Assembly: GCA_020831635.1 (NCBI GenBank)
Contig: JAFIGC010000049.1
Span: 1-33,534 of the forward strand
DNA length: 33,534 bases
Direction of reading: 5' to 3'
Origin: Verrucomicrobiota bacterium
GTDB lineage: Bacteria; Verrucomicrobiota; Kiritimatiellia; SS1-B-03-39; UBA6053
A model generated the notes under the pieces. That model saw nothing but the letters and a program-made list of their open reading frames with translations. It made no database searches and was not told where the DNA came from. Every line of letters starts with the position of its first letter. The stretch's first letter is position 1. Made by a program: the position numbers and the translations under genes. This document shows positions 6,216-32,081 of the stretch, one piece after another.

Positions 6216-7823
6216 CTATTTACAACGACTCTTCATTTCCTTTGCTTGTTCGATAAGGCGGTCTAGGTCCTCGCTCATATACTGCCCCGAGGCGATTTTT
6301 GTGGCTGAGGCCAGCAGTTCCCGTTCTGGTTTCCGCTGTTCCGATATGCCGGTCAACACGAAAGGCATTTTATCAACCATCACCGCTTTGAAATGCTCAC
6401 GGTCGGGCCGGAAATAGTGCTTGAGCACGATGTCGACCGTCCTGTGGCCGGTAATGCGGCGCACCAGTTCCATGGGAACGCCCGCCGACAGGGCAATCGT
6501 TACAAAGGTAACCCGGAGGGCGTGCCAATCCCTGACGGAGGCGGCGTTTTTTCGGCCTTCTCCCTGCACATTGGTTACCTGACGAACCCGGTCGCGGATG
6601 CCCTGCCAGTTGGTTCGCCGGATTCGTTGATCCAATTGGTCTTCGATAACGCCCAAGTCGCCGCTGATCTGCCCCTTGCTGTATCCGAACCGTGCTCCGA
6701 TTTCCCGGTAACTGGCTCCACCCGTATAGGCACGCAAGACATTGACCATTCGTTCATGGCGCGGGCTGCCATCCCGGGTTATTTTGGATATGGCATCCAA
6801 TCCCAGTTCCTGGGCCGCCTCTGGTGTCAGCTCCGGCTCTTCCGGCAGCACCTCGTCACCGGCAAGGGCGGTGGCGACCAGTAATTTGAAACGTCGGGTC
6901 AGTTTCTGGCCTCCGGATTTCGTTTCAACCATTTTCGCCGCTTCGGGAAAGACATCGTTCGAAGTTTTTGGCTGTTGATCCAGGACTTCCAACAGGGGAC
7001 CGAAAATTGGAATTTCCAGCTTTTCGCGTGTTTTGCCTGTTTTGCAGTTGATCACACCCGCCTGCAAATCAACATCGGCCCAGCGCAGGCGGCAAACGTC
7101 GCCTTTCCGCATGCCCGTGCAGGCGGCGCAGACCACCAAAGGGTACAGTAGCTTGTCCTTGCGAGCCACTTCGAGTAGTTTTGTCAGCTCTTGCGTGGTA
7201 AAGGGTTTGCGGTGAATGGTCCCCGAGGTTTCGTCCCCCCGAAGACGGAGGTTTTGAAAGGGGTTGATTACACCTACGGGCAGAAACCTCGCAAATGCGC
7301 CACGGAGCAGGTTGATCGACTGGCGCACGGTTTCATCCGAGTAAGTCTCCTGCAAAGTCCGCAGGTGCTCGGCCACATCGAATTCCGTGACATCATGCAG
7401 ATAGATGGCGTTCCGGGGCGGCGTGTTCATAAAAGACTCAAAGCGGACGAATTTGCTGTCACAAGCATCGAGATGCGAGTCAGAGACCGGCCGGCTTCTG
7501 GGCATGCTTCGCCAGAGGCTCGGTAACTGCGACAGCTTCGCGTAGACAAGCTTGCGCCCGGTCTTGGATTCGATCAGTTTTTCCGTGAGATGTTCCGCGC
7601 GGCCCTTGCGTTGGGCCTCATCTTGGATTTCCGCCAATTTCCGCTGCGCCTGCTCCCGCGAACGTTCAAATGTCGGGCATCCCTGTTCTCGTAAATCCTC
7701 CGGTGGCGTTCCCTTCCATTTGATTCCCAGATTGACATCTTTCAGTTTTCCGTCCACGCTGTAACGCCCATAAAAATGGGGTCTCAAAGCACCGCTGGGA
7801 TTTCGTTTCAATCGTAAACTCAT
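6216..7823 (-). CDS. Tyrosine recombinase/integrase with an HTH-containing insertion
   Basis: The 535-residue protein has an SAM-like core-binding domain (about 95-200) and a tyrosine recombinase catalytic domain. Catalytic residues visible are Arg239 (CTGMRKGD), a Lys in the CKTGKTRE hairpin (261 or 264), His434 and Arg437 (DWHALR), His460 (ITGH) and the nucleophile Tyr470 (LKHYF). The distance from Arg239 to His434 is about 195 residues, roughly 100 more than usual. The extra part (about 315-425) contains an HTH-like stretch, YREIGARFGYSKGQISGDL. GGAGAC upstream supports the ATG. The gene points away from the tRNA-Pro fragment at 7973-8017, consistent with site-specific integration into tRNA-Pro. 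All catalytic residues are present, so the enzyme may be active. Confidence 0.92.
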   Translation of the reverse strand: MSLRLKRNPSGALRPHFYGRYSVDGKLKDVNLGIKWKGTPPEDLREQGCPTFERSREQAQRKLAEIQDEAQRKGRAEHLTEKLIESKTGRKLVYAKLSQLPSLWRSMPRSRPVSDSHLDACDSKFVRFESFMNTPPRNAIYLHDVTEFDVAEHLRTLQETYSDETVRQSINLLRGAFARFLPVGVINPFQNLRLRGDETSGTIHRKPFTTQELTKLLEVARKDKLLYPLVVCAACTGMRKGDVCRLRWADVDLQAGVINCKTGKTREKLEIPIFGPLLEVLDQQPKTSNDVFPEAAKMVETKSGGQKLTRRFKLLVATALAGDEVLPEEPELTPEAAQELGLDAISKITRDGSPRHERMVNVLRAYTGGASYREIGARFGYSKGQISGDLGVIEDQLDQRIRRTNWQGIRDRVRQVTNVQGEGRKNAASVRDWHALRVTFVTIALSAGVPMELVRRITGHRTVDIVLKHYFRPDREHFKAVMVDKMPFVLTGISEQRKPERELLASATKIASGQYMSEDLDRLIEQAKEMKSRCK

Positions 7824-21041: not shown

Positions 21042-22195
21042 ATGAACAATTCTGCATCGACATCCGGGAAGCCTATTCGAACGATTGCGCTGGTCCTCTG
21101 CGTCTTGGCGGCCGGCATGGGGGCATGGTTGGGACTGTCCGCCTTGGGAACCGGGTCTTTGCCGCCCGGCTGCGGGGAAGGCGCGGGTTGCGGGGAAGTG
21201 CTCACCTCCCCCTGGTCGCGCTGGTACGGGCTGCCGGTGGCCTGGGGCGCCGTGGGCGCGTATGTGGCCCTCGCCATTTCACTGGTCGCCCGAAAACCCA
21301 AGGCCACCGCGTTTTTCGCCACCACGGTACTGGGAGGAGTGGTCTGGTTTGTGTTCTTGCAGGCGGCGGTGATGCGGGTCTTTTGCCTGTATTGCATGAT
21401 TGACCATGGGATCGGGTCCCTGGCGGCCATCCTCGCCCTTCGCCTGGCCCGTCCCTCCAAGGCACCCATCCTCCTGGGTCTGGCGGCGACACTGCTGTTC
21501 GCGGGCTTGCACGCCCTTCAACCCCGGCGCATTCACACCCTGCGCGCCCCCGTCGAGGGAGACGCCGATTTCCGGAGTCCGGACGGGCGACGCGGTCTGG
21601 CATTGCTGGAGGGCGCCCTGGTGCTGGACGTGGCCGCCTCCCCCCTGATCGGCTCCCCCGACGCCACCCAAATCCTCGTGACCCTGGTGGATTACGCCTG
21701 CCCCCACTGCCGGGCCCTTCACCACGAATTGGTTCGCCATCAGCAACAACACCCTGAAGATCTCGCCTTCCTGGTCCTGCCCACCCCCATCCATCCGGAT
21801 TGCAATCCCCTGATGCAACAGGTTCCGGAACGATTTAACGACAGTTGCGACATTGCCCTTCTGTCGCTGGGGCTTTTTCACACTCACCCCGAGCTTTGGC
21901 CGGACTTTGATTTGTGGTTGTTTGAGCCTACGACACCCCGGACCCTGTGGGATGTCCGCCAGCACTTGGAATACACGCTGGGGGCGGATCCCGACGCCCT
22001 GAAAGCCCACCCGTCCGCCCGGGCCGATCTCACTCGCAACGTCGGGGCTTTCGCGGACTTGCCCGTGGACGACCCCGGCGAACGCCGCCTGCCCGTCCTC
22101 CTCGCCGCCGGACATCCCCCCGTGATCGGCCCCGCCGGACGCCTCGACCGACTTCCCCATCTCGTCCCCGTCCAACCCCACCCGGAGTCCCCCGA

Positions 22196-22199
<4 letters not shown>
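21042..22199 (+). CDS. VKOR-thioredoxin (DsbA-like) fusion, disulfide-forming membrane enzyme
   Basis: The 385-residue protein fuses a vitamin K epoxide reductase domain to a thioredoxin-fold domain. In the membrane part (about 10-160) the loop cysteines are Cys44 and Cys50, followed by SRWYGLPVAWGA and the quinone-side pair Cys115-x-x-Cys118 (FCLYC), with hydrophobic segments at about 12-32, 66-83, 92-112 and 122-156. The C-terminal part has the CPHC active site at 220-223 (VDYACPHCRALHH), as in DsbA. Such fusions oxidise cysteines of exported proteins and pass electrons to quinones. The stop overlaps the ATG of the moxR gene, so the two are translationally coupled, which suggests its clients are made by this cluster. 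Confidence 0.92.
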
Positions 22200-23214
<1,015 letters not shown>

Positions 23215-23215
<1 letters not shown>

Positions 23216-24201
23216 TGAATTCCCGGGTCACCCCTCCTCCCCTGCCATCGGCCAAACCGGTGGTGCACCGCTACCTGAGCCCCACCGATATCCGGGCGCT
23301 TCGCGACCTCGAGTTCCATCCGCGCCGCATGACCCACGGCATGTTCAGCGGACGCCACGCCTCCCCCCAACGCGGCCAAAGCTCCGAATTCAGCGACTAC
23401 CGGGAGTACACCCCCGGCGACGAAATGAAAAATCTCGACTGGAAGGTGCTCGGTCGCAGCGACCGCCTCTACATCAAAACCTTCGAACATCAGGCGCAGA
23501 TGGATGTGTATCTGCTGGTGGACGCCTCGGCCAGCATGGAGTATGGCCGCAAGGGCGCCGTCTCCGCGGGCCGCCTGCTCCGCAAGCACCCGGAAGCCCC
23601 CGACCATGGCAAAATCGATTACGCCTGCCGCCTCGCCGCCGCCATCGCTTGGCTGGTCACCCGTCAACAGGACCGCGCCGGCCTCGGAATCGCCCAACGC
23701 GGTCTGCTCGATTTTCTGCCCGCGCGCGGAACCACCCCCCACGTCTTCGAACTGGTGGACCGGCTCGATCAACTCCATCCCATGCACGGATCCGGCCTCG
23801 CCCTCGCCCTGCGGGACCTGGCCCTTCGCCTGCGCCGCCGCGCCGTGATCCTGATCTTTTCCGATTTGATGGACGACGGGGAGGACGAGATCCTCCTGGA
23901 ACTCCGCAAGGCCCGCCATCGGGGACATACGCTCGGACTCTTCCACGTGCTCCATCCCCATGAACTCGACCTGCCGGATTTCGGAGAGGTTCTGCTCACC
24001 GACAGCGAAAAGACCTCCCGCGAAATTCGTTTTCACGCCCCCGACATCCGCGAGGCCTACGCCGAACGCATTGCCGCATACCTGCACCGCTGGCACGAAG
24101 GGGCGCTCTCCCTCGGGGTGGATCACCTGCTCGCCCCCACCCATCGTCCCGCCCCGGATCTGCTCCGCGAATTTCTCACCTCCCACGGGCGGAGATCCTG
24201 A
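23215..24201 (+). CDS. DUF58 protein with VWA-like fold
   Basis: The 328-residue protein shows the DUF58 signature FSDYREYTPGDEMKNLDW (59-76) with RLYIKTFE behind it, and a metal-ion-dependent adhesion site DASAS (103-107) in a VWA-like domain (LVDASASMEYG, AVILIFSDLMDDGED). There is no membrane segment. DUF58 proteins regularly accompany MoxR ATPases and are thought to be their substrate or adaptor, linking to membrane VWA proteins. A hydrophobic-poor insertion (RKGAVSAGRLLRKHPEAPD) after the first motif is longer than usual. The start codon overlaps the moxR stop. Confidence 0.92.
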
Positions 24202-24203
24202 CC

Positions 24204-26264
24204 GTGTTCATCCTCGCCTCCTTTGGATTCGCCGCCCCGGCCCTCCTCGCCGGCGCCCTCATGGTGGGGCTGCCCCTCCTGGCGCACTTCATGAACCGCA
24301 AGGTGCGCACCCGCCTGGTCTTTCCCTCCCTGCGCCTCCTGAGCGATGTGCTCGTGAGCCGCGAGCGCGTCGGCGCCTGGCGTAAATGGCTGTTGTTTTT
24401 GATGCGGGCGCTGGCCGTGGTGTTGCTCGCCGCCGCCTTCGCCCTGCCCTTCTGGTCCCGCGCCCCCCGCATCGAAGCCTCCGAAACCGACGAAACGACC
24501 GGCGCCACCCTGGTGGTGATCGACGCCAGCCTGTCCATGGAACGCGACCTCGGCGGCGCCAACGCCTGGGAGCAGGCCCTGCGAAGCGCCGATGACCTGT
24601 TGGCGCGTGCAGGCGGTCAGGGGCGACGGGTACAGGTCCTGCTCGCCCACGGCCAGCCCGAATCCCTCTTCCCCCGCTTTACCGCCAACCATCCCGCCTT
24701 GCGGGCGGAACTCCAAAACGCCCGCCCCACCGCCTCCCGCGCCGACCTGCCCGCCGCCTTGTCGCAGGCGGCCCGCCTCCTGAACGAACAGCCTGCCCCA
24801 CGCGCCTTGGTGCTGATCACCGATGCGCAGGAAAGCAACTGGCGCGAGGTGCTCGACGCCCCGATGCCCCCCGCGTTGGCTGGCGTGGAAATCACCGTGA
24901 TTCGCACCCCGGACCGCCCCGTCACCAACCTTTCCGTCCACACCCCCCGCCTGGAACCCCGCACCCCCGTACCCGGACAGCCCGCCCGCGTCCGCGCCCA
25001 ACTCCAAAATCATGGCGATGCCCCTGGTCAAACCCCCGTCACCCTTCGCCTGAACGGCATTCCCGTCCACACCGACACCGTCACATTGTCCCCTCGCGAG
25101 ACCCGCGAATGGGAAACGACCCTCCACATCGACGACGAGGGACTCCACGCCCTGGAAATCGAAATCGGCCCCGACGAATTCGCGCCCGACAATATCACCC
25201 GTCTGGTGGCCCGCGTGCGCAGTCATCCCGGCGTAATTCTCGTGACCCGCGAGCCGCCCGACCGTCCCGGCACCGCCACCTACCATTTGATTCGCGCCCT
25301 CGCTCCCCACGGAGACGAACGCGACCGCTGGATGCCCCGCGTCCTTCAGCCCGGCGAACTCTCCACCGCCTCGCTCGCCGACGCCCCGGTCCTCTGGACC
25401 GTGGGGGATCTCGACCTGGCGCCACGAGAGCGGGAACTCTTGGCCCAACGGGCGGAAACCCTGGGATGGATTCAATGGATGGACGGACAAACCGAGCCCG
25501 CCCCCGCCACGACGCCCTTCCGCCTGCGCGAGGACCGCGATGCCGCCGAATTGCTGCCCGGTTTCGATCCCGCCGCACGCGACACCCTTTCCCGCGTGCC
25601 CCTCACAAGGCGCGCCATCATGGAGGCCGAAGAAGGAGAACGCGTGGCCCTCCGCTTTCGTGACGGCGTTCCCGCCCTCGCCTGGCGCGAAACCGCCGGG
25701 GGCGGGCGCGTGGTTCGCGCCGCCTTCAGTCCCGCCCGCGCCGATGGCGGGCTGGGGTCCGCCGCCGTGTGGGTCGCCCTCGTGCATGCGCTCATGGAAG
25801 CCATGCCCGATCCGCAAGACGGCGGCGGGTTCCCGGTTGCCGGAGAAAGCGTGGCTCTTCACGCCCACGATTTCCGTCCCGGCGGCGGGGAACCCGTTCT
25901 CCGGGGACCCGACGGACGCCGCCTGTTGGATACGGTCTTTCTCCTCGAGGGACGCACCCTCGGCGGCACCGCCCCCGTCGCCCGCCAGACCGGCGTCTAC
26001 ACCCTGCATCAGGGCGAACGGCTGCTGGACAAGGTGGCGGTCAATCCCGATCCCCGCGAAAGCGACTTCCGCCCCGTCGCCGCCGAAGTGCTCGCCAACC
26101 ATCTGCAAAGCGAAGACGGCCCCGCCACCCGAACCGCCTCCACCGGCGACCCCGCCGACGATCTTTTTCCCGACGATGGCCTTCCCCTCTGGGGATGGGC
26201 CTTCCTCCTCGCGATTCTGCTGCTCTCGCTGGAATCCACCCTGCTGGCCAGGTGGCGGACATGA
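24204..26264 (+). CDS. BatA-like membrane protein with VWA domain
   Basis: A GTG two bases after the DUF58 stop starts a 686-residue protein. Residues 1-90 form an aerotolerance-type N-terminal domain: a hydrophobic segment (about 8-30), a basic linker (RKVRTRLVFPSLRLLSD) and a second segment (about 62-84). A VWA domain follows with DASLS (107-111) and LVLITDAQE. A CARDB-like beta domain (about 230-330, TPVPGQPARVRAQLQNHGD) and a mixed region follow, and a last membrane segment is at about 663-682. The bulk after residue 90 is predicted to face the periplasm. BatA-type proteins work with MoxR and DUF58; their biochemical job is poorly known. The stop overlaps the next ATG. Confidence 0.9.
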   Translation: MFILASFGFAAPALLAGALMVGLPLLAHFMNRKVRTRLVFPSLRLLSDVLVSRERVGAWRKWLLFLMRALAVVLLAAAFALPFWSRAPRIEASETDETTGATLVVIDASLSMERDLGGANAWEQALRSADDLLARAGGQGRRVQVLLAHGQPESLFPRFTANHPALRAELQNARPTASRADLPAALSQAARLLNEQPAPRALVLITDAQESNWREVLDAPMPPALAGVEITVIRTPDRPVTNLSVHTPRLEPRTPVPGQPARVRAQLQNHGDAPGQTPVTLRLNGIPVHTDTVTLSPRETREWETTLHIDDEGLHALEIEIGPDEFAPDNITRLVARVRSHPGVILVTREPPDRPGTATYHLIRALAPHGDERDRWMPRVLQPGELSTASLADAPVLWTVGDLDLAPRERELLAQRAETLGWIQWMDGQTEPAPATTPFRLREDRDAAELLPGFDPAARDTLSRVPLTRRAIMEAEEGERVALRFRDGVPALAWRETAGGGRVVRAAFSPARADGGLGSAAVWVALVHALMEAMPDPQDGGGFPVAGESVALHAHDFRPGGGEPVLRGPDGRRLLDTVFLLEGRTLGGTAPVARQTGVYTLHQGERLLDKVAVNPDPRESDFRPVAAEVLANHLQSEDGPATRTASTGDPADDLFPDDGLPLWGWAFLLAILLLSLESTLLARWRT

Positions 26265-28457
26265 ATACCCTGTGGTTGCCCTTTTTCCCGCCGCCGCTGG
26301 TGTTTGCCCTCCTCGCGCTGGGTCTCCTTTCCGCCGGCGCCGCCTACCTGCGCACCCGCAATCGCGGGCGGGGATTCGCCCTCTTTTTCATGCTCCTCCG
26401 CACCTCCGCCCTCGGGCTGGTGGCCCTTTGCCTCCTCGGACCCGCCCGGGAACCCGTCCCCCAAAGCGCCGGAGAAGCGCCCCGCATCGACTTTTGGGTG
26501 GACACCTCCGCCTCCATGGACGTGGAGGACATGGATGGCCTCAGCCGTCTCGACTTTGTCAAAAACACTTGGCTGGCACCGCAATTCCTCTCCGCCCTGG
26601 AGCGCAGGGGGATTGCCCTGCGCGGCTTCGCCTTTGACGTGAATTCCCGCGAATTTCCGCTCTCCCCCGAGAAAATCGCCGAACTCGAGGCCGTGGGAGA
26701 AGCCACCCACATCACCCGAAACCTTGTCCAAGGCCTCTCCTCCGGCAACCCGGCTCCCGGGGCGCTGGTTTTGTTCAGCGACGGCATCGACTCCACCCCA
26801 TCCCCCCCCCCCCCCCGCCATCGCCCTCGCCCGCGAACGCGGCATTCCCATCCACACCGTCACCCTCGGCGGCGCCCGGCTGGAACCCGATCTGGCCGTA
26901 TCCGCGCTCCCCCTGCAACCCACCCTGGTGGTGGGCGAAACCGGGGGCATTCATGTGCAGATTTTCCAGGCCAACGTCGGCAACCAGCGCATCACCGTGG
27001 AAATCGACGACGGGGAAACCGTCCGCGAGGAGGAATTGTGGTTTCAGGGGGAGCCGGTCCTCGGATTCGAGGTGCCCGTTCAGCACGACGAACCCGGCAC
27101 CTACGCCTACTCCTTTCGTGTCCAACCCCTGCCTCGGGAGGTGGAACTCCGCAACAACCACCAGACCGTGTACATCAACGTCACCCCCCATCGCTTCCGG
27201 GTGCTGCTGATGGAAGGCGAGCCGGGCTGGGACTCGAAATTTCTCGCCCACGCCCTTCGCAACGACCCGCGCATGGAACTGCTGCAAGTCTCGCAACTCT
27301 CCCCCACCCGCCGCGAGATCCTCTCCACCCGCATCCCCGACGGCGAGGCCAAATTCCCCGCCACCCGGGAGGAACTGGCCGCATTTGACGCCGTGATCCT
27401 CGGACGCTCTCCGCATCGGGTGACCGGCGAGGCCTGGTTCGATCTGCTCGACGGCTTCGTCCGCGACCAGGGCGGGGGCCTGCTCTGGGCCCGGGGTCCG
27501 CCTCAAGCCATTGGCCTGCCCGCGCCCGTGGCCGCCCGCCTCGCCTCGCTTTCGCCCCTGAGTGCCGTGCAGGGATTTGTCCCCGAACCCCGCCTCACCC
27601 TCGCACCGGAAGGACGGGGTCACCCCGCCTTCGAGTGGGGCGGCGTCGGCGTCCCCGACCAAGTCATGCCCAAACTGCCCCCCCTCATGCGCGCCGTTCG
27701 CGGCACCGCCCGCGCCGGCGCCCGGATCCTGCTCAACCTGGATACCGAAGGCGCCCCGCCCGCCCTCCTGTCCATGCCGTCGGGCAACGGACGCGTAATG
27801 CTGTTCGCGGGCGAAGGCTTTTGGCAATGGCGCCTCCTGTCCCCCGAACTGGATCAATACAGCCCGGTCTACGACCTCATCTGGTCCGCCCTGCTGCGCC
27901 AATTGGTCACCGGGGAATTCGCCCCCGGCCAGGAAATCGACCTGCGCCTCTCGGAAGTGAATCTCGAAGCGGGTTCCCCGCTGCTCATCGCGGTCTCCCG
28001 TCGCCTGCCCGCCCAAACGGACGAGATGTCCTTGCAACTCGTGCAGCCGGATGGACAACGGGTGACCCTTTCCGCTGCGGATGTCTCCGGACGGGGCACC
28101 CGTTTTGAGCTGGAACTGAAGCCCGAACTCCCCGGGGAATACCGCGTGGAACTGGACACCCCCGACACTGAACCCACTCGCCTGGAGCGCAGCTTCAACG
28201 TCTTCGACCTCGACACCGAACGCATCATCACCTCCGCCCGTCCCGAGTGGATGCGGCTCCTCGCGCGGGAAACCGGCGGTGTCGTCCTCGATCCCCGCGA
28301 ACCCGACAGCCTGCCCGATCTTCTGAATCGAGGTCTGCTTTCGCTTGAAATTCCTGGAAAACCGGAGTTAATTTGGGATCGACCCTCCCTGATGCTCCTC
28401 ATCCTCGCCCTCCTCGGCTTCGAATGGATCCTCCGCAAAACCAAAGGATGGTTATGA
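26261..28457 (+). CDS. VWA membrane protein with glutamine-amidotransferase-like domain, frame broken at a 15-C run
   Basis: The frame from the ATG at 26261 gives two membrane segments (about 10-30 and 40-60), a VWA domain with DTSAS (81-85) and LVLFSDGID, then becomes nonsense after 15 consecutive C (26802-26816). Another frame continues sensibly with AIALARERGIPIHTVTLG to the TGA at 28455-28457. Removing one C (or adding two) joins them to a 731-residue protein. The second part holds a CARDB-like domain, a class I glutamine-amidotransferase-like fold (FRVLLMEGEPGWDSKFLAHA, GGGLLWARG) without an evident catalytic Cys, and a C-terminal membrane helix (SLMLLILALLGFEWIL). Sequencing error, phase variation or a real null mutation are all possible. 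Confidence 0.85.
26802..26816 (+). repeat. Homopolymer of 15 C within the VWA gene
   Basis: Fifteen consecutive C interrupt the second VWA gene and carry the frameshift. On either side the sequence reads well in different frames. Confidence 0.9.
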
Positions 28458-31327
28458 GCCACGACCCCGCCCCCAACCAAATCCCCGCCGACCCCACGCT
28501 GATTGACCTCCTTCGGGGCGCCCACCGCGAACGCGCCCGCTTGCGGGCCGGCGTGCGCGCCGCCCTCGGATTGGCACTCTGGGGAACGGTCCTCGTCCCG
28601 CTCTTCGCCGCCGACGCCCTCTGGATTTTGCCGCCGACCCTCCGGTTTGCCCTCCTCTGCCTCTGGCTCGCCTTCCCCTTCGCCATCCTATTCGTGGCCC
28701 TGCGGACGCGGCGGCATCCGTTTTCCGAAACCAACGCCGCCCTGGCGGAAGAAAAACGGGGCGGCCTGCAAAACGACGAGGTGGCCTCCGCCGTGGACCT
28801 GCTCCATGGCGCCCGCCCCGGCATCAGCGAATCCCTGCGAAAAGAAAGCGTGGCCAGGGGCGTGCGGGCCTTGCAACAGGTTCAGGCCGAATATCCGCTG
28901 GATCGCCGCCCGCTCCGACGCGCCCGACTGGCCCGTGTGGCTGTTGTTTGCGGCGTGGTCCTCCTCGGAGCCCTTTTCCCGGGCGTCGTCCGCCAAGTGA
29001 CCCCACGCTTCCTGCAACCCTGGGGCGATCATCCCCCTTACACCCGCCTCCGCTTTCGGGTGGAGCAGACCCCCGACCCCGTTCCCCTGCGGCACGACGC
29101 CCGCCTGCGTGTTCACGTGGAGGGTCCCGGTTTGCCCGACCGCGCCGAACTGCTCTTTCACGACGAAGGGGACGCCCCCGTGCGCGTCCGCATGCAGATG
29201 GCCAATGTGGGCGACGAAGAAAACGGCGTGAGCTTTGCCAGCCGTCTCGACAACATCTCCGGTCCGCGGGTATTTTCCATCGACACCCCTCGCGGGCGAA
29301 GCCGCCGATTTGAACTTGCGGTCAGCACCCGACCCCGCTTGGAGGGCGCTTGGTTGCGGGTCGAACCGCCCGCCTACACCGGATGGCCCGCCCGCGAGGA
29401 ACGAATCACCGCCCCGCAACTCGAAGCCCTGCGCGGCAGCCGCGTCACCCTGATGCTCGATGCCAACCTGCCCCTGGGCGATTCGCGGCTCGAATGGGAT
29501 CACCCGGATCGTCACGAACAAAACACCCACGTCCCCATGCCGCCCCTCCCGAAACCGGACACCCGCGCCGCCGGACACTGGACCGCCGCCGTGGACGACC
29601 ATTTCCGGGCCTGGCTCTTCGGAGCCAACGGCGAAAAGGCCGATGTTCCTTTTTCCGGCAGCTTCACCGTCCGGCCCGACCGGCCCCCGCGCGTCGCCGT
29701 CACCGATCCCGAAAAAGTCGTCTACGCGCCCGAGGACTGGACCGTGAACCTCTCCCTCACCGCCGTCGACGACGTGCGGGTGGAACGCATGGACGTCTCC
29801 GTCCTGCGCGGGGATTCCGTGAGCGTACATCCCATTGAATTGGATGCCAACCGCAGCGACCCCACCCGCGCCCAGGCCGTGCATGCCCTGGACCTCGCCG
29901 CCATCGGCGCCAGGGCCGGGGACCGCATCCGCTATTTCGCCACCGCCGTCGACAACCACCCCGAGCCCCCCCAATCCGCCGACTCCGAAATCGGCGTCAT
30001 TCAAGTCCTCTCCCGCGAGGCCTACGATGCGATGATGCGCGAACACTACCGCATCGAGGATTGGCTCGAGGAGGTCGCCGACCATCTCGCCACCCTCAAC
30101 CGGCTGCGCGATGAAAAAGCCGCCCTCCTCGATCAACTGGAGGAACTCCACGACCGCGCCGCCGCCAATCCCGACGAAGATCTTTCCCGGGAAATCGCCG
30201 CCGCCCGCAGCCGTTTGGAACGCCTCCGAGAAGATTTCGACGCCTTCGCGGGCGCGCTCACCGAACGGGCCGAACTCGACCAACTCCACGATTGGGAGAC
30301 CCCCTACAAAGAATGGCTGAAGGAAACCGCCGCCCAAATGCAGGAACAGCAAAATGCCGCCGGCGAGGTCGCCCGGGCCCTTGCCGCCCCCGCCGCTTCC
30401 GCCCTGTCCGAGGCCATGACCCGCTGGGCCGAGATGACCGAACCCTTCGGGGACCTTCCCTCCGATCCCATGGACCTTGAGCAGGAATGGGACGAAATGG
30501 TGGACGCCATGCGCATGGTGGACCAGACCATGCGCCTGCGGCAACTCATCGAAGACCAGCAGGATATCGCCGACCGGCTTGCCTCCGCGCGTGACCGACC
30601 CGACAGCCCCGAAACCCGCGAAATTCTCCGTCGTCTCTCGGGGGCCCAAGAACTGCTTCGCCAGGAACTACAGGAAGTTCAACAGGGCTTGCGCGAGGCC
30701 GCCGATGCCCTGGAAGAAAGCCAACCCGATCTCGCCCGGGAGGGCCGCGCCTTGGCCGATGCCCTCGACCGCATGAATGTGGCAGGCGACCAGGCGGATG
30801 CCGCCGGCCATGCCGAAGCCTCCCGCGCCGAACCCGCTTCGCAGTCCGCCCAACGCGCCGCCGACAGCCTCGCCTCCCTCGCCGGGGACTGCGAGGCCCA
30901 GTGTGAAGCCGCCGGACAATGCCTCTCCAGCCTGCTCGGCCTGACCCCGCCCGGACTGCACCCCTCCATGGAAGCCGCCATGCAAGCCGCCCTCACCGCC
31001 CGCCCCGGCTTCAGCCCCGGCCGCACCGGCACGCAAGGCCCGGGCAGCGGCGGTCTCATTTCCACCGTCGGCATGGTCGGCCCCCAATATCCTTCGCGCG
31101 GACAAAGCGTCGCCCTTCGCTCCGCCTCGCGCCGCAGGGGGGACGGCCTCGCCGGCGGACAAGGACACGGCGCGTCCCCCGCGCCCGCCGAAGCCCTGCA
31201 TCCCGACGCCCTGCCCGAATCCTTCCACACCGCCCCCGGCCTCGGCACCATCCCCCTCAGATACCGCCGCCAAGCCGCCGCCTATTTCGACCGCCTGATC
31301 CAAGACGATTCCAACTCGGAGCCATGA
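28454..31327 (+). CDS. Large DUF4175-like membrane protein with coiled coil
   Basis: The 957-residue product begins at an ATG overlapping the previous stop. Membrane segments are at about 35-52, 62-84 and 158-178. A large predicted periplasmic part follows with Ig/beta-like stretches (LRFRVEQTPDPVPL, AWLRVEPPAYTGWPAREE, AVDDVRVERMDVSVLRGD, RIRYFATAVDNHPEPP) and then a long Glu/Arg/Leu/Ala-rich coiled coil (about 535-800, with LRDEKAALLDQLEELHDRAA). The tail (about 840-957) is Gly/Ser/Pro-rich and probably disordered. The build matches DUF4175-type proteins next to MoxR/VWA genes in Verrucomicrobiota and Planctomycetota. No enzymatic motif is seen; a scaffold role is inferred. Confidence 0.85.
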   Translation: MSHDPAPNQIPADPTLIDLLRGAHRERARLRAGVRAALGLALWGTVLVPLFAADALWILPPTLRFALLCLWLAFPFAILFVALRTRRHPFSETNAALAEEKRGGLQNDEVASAVDLLHGARPGISESLRKESVARGVRALQQVQAEYPLDRRPLRRARLARVAVVCGVVLLGALFPGVVRQVTPRFLQPWGDHPPYTRLRFRVEQTPDPVPLRHDARLRVHVEGPGLPDRAELLFHDEGDAPVRVRMQMANVGDEENGVSFASRLDNISGPRVFSIDTPRGRSRRFELAVSTRPRLEGAWLRVEPPAYTGWPAREERITAPQLEALRGSRVTLMLDANLPLGDSRLEWDHPDRHEQNTHVPMPPLPKPDTRAAGHWTAAVDDHFRAWLFGANGEKADVPFSGSFTVRPDRPPRVAVTDPEKVVYAPEDWTVNLSLTAVDDVRVERMDVSVLRGDSVSVHPIELDANRSDPTRAQAVHALDLAAIGARAGDRIRYFATAVDNHPEPPQSADSEIGVIQVLSREAYDAMMREHYRIEDWLEEVADHLATLNRLRDEKAALLDQLEELHDRAAANPDEDLSREIAAARSRLERLREDFDAFAGALTERAELDQLHDWETPYKEWLKETAAQMQEQQNAAGEVARALAAPAASALSEAMTRWAEMTEPFGDLPSDPMDLEQEWDEMVDAMRMVDQTMRLRQLIEDQQDIADRLASARDRPDSPETREILRRLSGAQELLRQELQEVQQGLREAADALEESQPDLAREGRALADALDRMNVAGDQADAAGHAEASRAEPASQSAQRAADSLASLAGDCEAQCEAAGQCLSSLLGLTPPGLHPSMEAAMQAALTARPGFSPGRTGTQGPGSGGLISTVGMVGPQYPSRGQSVALRSASRRRGDGLAGGQGHGASPAPAEALHPDALPESFHTAPGLGTIPLRYRRQAAAYFDRLIQDDSNSEP

Positions 31328-31406: not shown

Positions 31407-32081
31407 ATGAAACGCTACTTACTCCTCTTCCTGTCGCTGGGATGCTTACACTTCCTGGGAATGGCCGAATCTTTGGACACCCCGCTGGCGGTGAGCTGTG
31501 CGAACCTCATTTATGGCAGCGATGGCAAAACCTTCCGCTGTTTTCACAACGGGTTTTTGAAGGAAATTGAAAAACACGCCAACATCGTCGTGGAAAAAGA
31601 ATTCGTGATGGTGCCAAGTGAAACCCCCGAACTTTTTCGCCATCCTTTTGCCATCATGAGCGGCGAAGGAAGCTTCACCCTGACCGACCCCCAACGCACC
31701 AACCTCCGCCGATATTTGGAGGGCGGCGGCTTTCTCGTCGCCTCGGCGGGGTGCAGTTCCCGCAGTTGGGGACAAAGTTTTCTTCGGGAATTCAAAGAAC
31801 TCTTTCCCGAACGCGAACTTGTGAAACTGGAGCCGGAGCACCCCATTTTCCACACCGTTCACGACGTGGGCGTCAGCGCCTACCGCAGCGGAGGTTCCCG
31901 CTTCCCGGAACTCTACGGATTGGAAATCGACGGGCGCATTGTCTTGGTCTACTCTCCTGAAGGCCTCAATGACACCGCCAACATGAACAAAGATGCGGGC
32001 TGTTGCTGCTGCGGCGGAAATGAGATCCGCACCGCCAATTCCATCAACATGAACCTGCTCGCTTTCGCGCTGACCCACTAA
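31407..32081 (+). CDS. Exported DUF4159 protein
   Basis: The 224-residue protein starts with a signal peptide (about 1-20, MKRYLLLFLSLGCLHFLGMA) and continues as a DUF4159 domain: SCANLIYGSDGKTFRC, ETPELFRHPFAIMSGEGSFT, NLRRYLEGGGFLVAS, FKELFPERELVKLEPEHPIF and NMNLLAFALTH at the end. The fold is thought to be related to class I glutamine amidotransferases without the catalytic residues. Two single cysteines in the first 40 mature residues, CSS near 116 and a CCCC run near the C-terminus are unusual and fit a link to the VKOR-DsbA enzyme upstream. It regularly closes MoxR/DUF58/VWA clusters. The start has its own promoter and ribosome binding site. Confidence 0.9.
   Translation: MKRYLLLFLSLGCLHFLGMAESLDTPLAVSCANLIYGSDGKTFRCFHNGFLKEIEKHANIVVEKEFVMVPSETPELFRHPFAIMSGEGSFTLTDPQRTNLRRYLEGGGFLVASAGCSSRSWGQSFLREFKELFPERELVKLEPEHPIFHTVHDVGVSAYRSGGSRFPELYGLEIDGRIVLVYSPEGLNDTANMNKDAGCCCCGGNEIRTANSINMNLLAFALTH

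Follow-up and report, generated by a model that had tools for sequence, protein, structure and literature searches.

A One-Base Frame Break at a Run of 15 Cytosines in a VWA Gene of a Bat/MoxR-Type Cluster of a Verrucomicrobiota Bacterium

Gene Organization of the Locus

The stretch of DNA analyzed here (the window, 33,534 nucleotides) carries on its plus strand a cluster of six genes in the order MoxR ATPase, DUF58, BatA/VWA, second VWA, a large gene without a Pfam family, and DUF4159. The MoxR-type AAA ATPase gene (positions 21947–23215, PF07726) and the DUF58 gene (22993–24201, PF01882) both have their true start internal to the open reading frame. They are followed by the intact BatA/VWA gene (24204–26264, PF07584 and PF13519), the second VWA gene (26261–28457), the large gene (28454–31327), and the DUF4159 gene (31407–32081, PF13709). 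ATGA overlaps lie at both ends of the second VWA gene: its start overlaps the stop of the BatA/VWA gene at 26261–26264, and its stop overlaps the start of the large gene at 28454–28457, the latter in agreement with the initial annotation of this DNA. The same annotation had called the large gene "DUF4175-like"; this name was not confirmed, since searches of Pfam and NCBIfam gave no family match, just a weak match to a coiled-coil SMC protein, though a syntenic homologue with 30% identity exists in G004, a genome of the same family.

The Pfam matches and the synteny with G004, in which the cluster order is identical, identify the locus as a MoxR–DUF58–BatA/VWA tandem. It resembles the known Bat or MoxR–DUF58–VWA clusters, represented by BatB (PDB 3ibs) and Borrelia BB0170–0176 (PMC5700661), in having the MoxR ATPase, DUF58, BatA, and VWA membrane proteins in tandem, and differs from them in that the second VWA protein, of about 730 residues, has an extended C-terminal part and its gene is followed by the large gene without a family and by DUF4159. 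Further MoxR–DUF58–VWA clusters with unbroken homologues are present in the genome on contigs C180 and C160. Elsewhere in the window, a tyrosine recombinase of the phage integrase type (PF00589) is encoded on the minus strand at 6216–7823.

The second VWA protein gave no Pfam VWA match when searched alone. The VWA assignment made in the initial annotation nevertheless stands: VWA_2 is matched by 11 of its 16 homologues, and the homologue profile matches BatB (3ibs), other VWA structures, and an aerotolerance-related membrane protein. The DxSxS and SDG motifs of a VWA domain with a MIDAS are conserved in the homologues and present in the window protein; D83, S87, and D175 are invariant and S85 is kept in at least 90% of the 16 homologues. 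Judging from its family, the protein is probably a membrane-anchored VWA partner of the MoxR ATPase, of the Bat type (PMC5700661).

Tract and Reading Frame

Direct counting confirms exactly 15 consecutive C on the plus strand at positions 26802–26816, flanked by T and G. The second-longest C/G run in the window has 7 bases, and a run of 15 C appeared in none of 100 dinucleotide-preserving shuffles of the window. A search of the window against Rfam gave no matches.

According to a codon-usage score trained on the neighboring genes, the reading frame of the second VWA gene shifts once, at the tract, as the initial annotation had proposed. In terms of codon log-odds, the frame that begins at 26261 is favored up to 26801 and is negative thereafter, and the frame displaced by +1 base is favored from 26817 to the stop at 28457. 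Both favored frames score positively and are stop-free within the gene, and no other break was found when the same score was used to look for one elsewhere in the gene. The 5′ part (26261–26801) encodes the N-terminal membrane segment and then the first half of the VWA domain, which includes the DTSAS and SDG motifs. The tract, one base out of register, encodes a proline-rich portion of the loop that follows the SDG (MIDAS) strand. In the other frame, the 3′ part (26817–28457) completes the VWA domain and adds the C-terminal region. Translation in a single register gives a protein of 731 residues, the length that the initial annotation had expected after a change of one base. If the tract is taken as written, 180 native residues are followed by about 195 out-of-frame Arg/Pro-rich residues (26817–27388) with a negative coding score, and translation ends at the stop at 27388 after 375 residues. 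The exact coincidence of the frame change with the tract, together with the strong coding signal on both sides, indicates that the gene is constrained rather than decayed.

Comparison with Homologues at the Tract Site

All homologues listed when 346 genomes of the class were searched have unbroken frames. The two nearest orthologues (40–41% identity) are among them, and one of these, the 41% identical gene of G004, lies in a fully syntenic cluster. A scan of named genomes for relatives gave just two distant matches. The site is readable in 20 homologues of the same class, and the longest C/G run at it is 6 bases; thus, no tract is found at the same site in these relatives, and no slippery site, as expected for a programmed +1 frameshift, is kept in the homologues. 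As the nearest orthologues are only about 40% identical, the missing tract makes a conserved switch less likely in this sequence comparison but does not count against a switch of recent origin.

The loop after the SDG strand is variable in sequence and nearly fixed in length across the homologues: measured from SDG to LGG or the corresponding residues, it has 32 residues in 11 of 17 homologues and 33 in the other 6. In the correct register, the loop of the window protein has 32 residues. In the neighboring genes, CCC makes up 62% of the proline codons and TCC 44% of the serine codons, so that with these local preferences a long C run arises easily from a few proline codons.

C/G Runs Across the Genome

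Run statistics for the 6-Mb draft genome were obtained by pattern searches and from inspected stretches. There are 289 C/G runs of at least 8 bases and 81 of at least 10 bases. These raw counts suggested a genome rich in coding C-tracts, an idea that was dropped because most of the long runs lie at contig ends: those of at least 12 bases are mostly within about 100 bases of an end. Among the contig ends with runs of at least 10 bases, G runs outward in 30 and C in 7 (hand count, p = 0.0002), an outward-G bias of the kind that an assembly acquires from poly-G read tails. The pattern at contig ends is a sign of poly-G trouble in the data set and does not prove the tract of the second VWA gene wrong. 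Contig ends of G000 (C6, C12, C51, C61, C108, C135, C161, C285, and others) have poly-C starts and poly-G ends of up to 50 bases; mostly oriented with G outward, they are likely poly-G read artefacts of the deposited assembly.

Only four internal runs reach 12 bases or more, on contigs C21 (14 bases), C23 (13), and C230 (13) and in the window. The runs of C21 and C23 have no clear coding signal, and that of C230 lies in a low-complexity GC-rich stretch; the tract of the second VWA gene is the longest internal run and the sole one in an otherwise clean gene. Where runs of 10–11 bases have a clear coding signal on both sides, the frame is kept, which suggests that only the longest run causes trouble. 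There is thus no sign here of a set of contingency genes, for which several comparable intragenic tracts would be expected in one genome. Both mutS and mutL are present in the genome.

Interpretation of the Frame Break

We consider it most probable (about 0.5) that the C-rich codon run itself is genuine and that a technical error has given it a length in the assembly that differs by one base from the true one. A real C-rich proline run, TCC followed by CCC codons and then GCC, would occupy a loop that is free in sequence and constrained in length; in a draft short-read metagenome assembly, the length of this homopolymer would have been misjudged in the reads or in the consensus, leaving one base too many, and the gene would be intact in most cells and would not switch. 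The technical origin of the extra base is what we infer, and the fragmentation of the assembly and its poly-G ends point to two-colour short reads. A length error is favored by the register giving 731 residues, which reproduces the loop length of 32 typical of the family, by the unbroken frames of the homologues listed, by the strong coding signal on both sides of the tract, by the local ease with which C runs arise, by the outward-G contig ends, and by the in-frame runs of 10–11 bases. Against it, slippage in short-read sequencing or PCR shortens runs more often than it lengthens them, and the majority consensus often survives; a tract of this length is itself hypermutable, so that a real one-base change is nearly as likely. 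On short-read platforms, miscalls of homopolymer length become more frequent as runs grow longer, and 8-mers are already significantly affected (PMC11140927). The initial annotation had named sequencing error as the main alternative to a phase-variation switch, and we judge it the better reading of the two. More generally, where the frame of a gene in a draft metagenome genome breaks by a single base at a long C/G run, the reads are needed before the break is given a biological meaning.

Next in probability comes, tentatively, a real slippage mutation, by which the population or a large part of it would be out of frame, the change being neutral or mildly harmful and drifting to and fro without evolved regulation. 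A run of 15 bases is inherently unstable, and the unbroken homologues in the clusters of C180 and C160 may cover the loss. Frame-changing, slowly drifting G/C tracts are an already known kind: in Propionibacterium acnes, reading frames are affected by G/C tracts of differing length, which change slowly with descent and are not actively switched (PMC4746626). Like the tract described here, some of them are intragenic and frameshifting, have sequencing error as the main concern, and show length differences without proof of switching; unlike it, they include real length variants established by 90 genomes and Sanger checks, whereas the present tract is known from one draft assembly. The codon signal of the 3′ part is, however, as strong as that of the 5′ part, so that the loss, if real, would be very recent, and the presence of mutS and mutL also speaks against such a mutation.

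The initial annotation had favored a phase-variation switch, in which reversible slippage would toggle the second VWA protein and, through lost translational coupling, the next genes. In line with this, the tract is long enough for instability and positioned so that slippage would alter the frame, the stop of the second VWA gene shares bases with the start of the downstream gene, and in Neisseria, homopolymers of at least 8 bases are mostly variable, with G/C tracts dominating the strong candidates (PMC5084427). The phase-variable tracts of Neisseria meningitidis share with it a long intragenic G/C run that alters the frame, but they vary between strains, recur across orthologues, and lie mainly in genes for surface structures (PMC5084427), none of which was seen here. 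The absence of the tract from all readable homologues, where C/G runs do not exceed 6 bases, the lack of a set of comparable intragenic tracts in the genome, a conserved cluster of the Bat/MoxR type in place of a typical surface contingency locus, a loop length held at 32–33 residues across the family, and the mismatch-repair genes make a switch unlikely. Less likely still is its narrower form, in which slippage switching would have arisen recently, in this lineage only, within a membrane complex of the Bat/MoxR type of an uncultured bacterium, and would toggle the second VWA protein together with the downstream genes coupled to it. A switch of either kind, if real, would extend phase variation beyond the usual surface genes to a chaperone-like membrane complex. 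Least probable of all, and improbable in itself, is recoding, by which a +1 shift of the ribosome on CCC codons or slippage of RNA polymerase would yield some full-length protein. The shift needed is indeed +1, and CCC with a further base is a classic +1-prone site, normally checked by tRNA modification (PMC3617221, PMC5372744); however, a programmed site would be conserved and this one is conserved in no homologue, so that from the sequence at most a passive rescue can be predicted.

Long Runs in Other Genomes

Long C/G runs in G008, a single-contig relative, and in G003, a genus-mate, were considered as parallels to the tract of the second VWA gene and set aside, being mostly intergenic, low-complexity, or at contig ends. 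In G008, four runs of 13–17 bases (L111–L114) are apparently intergenic or non-coding; because this genome is one contig, they are more credible as real tracts. In G003, a run of 28 C (L120, contig 15, positions 1481–1508) is internal to a 203-kb contig and has opposite-strand coding signal on either side; it may belong to a promoter region or result from a false join.
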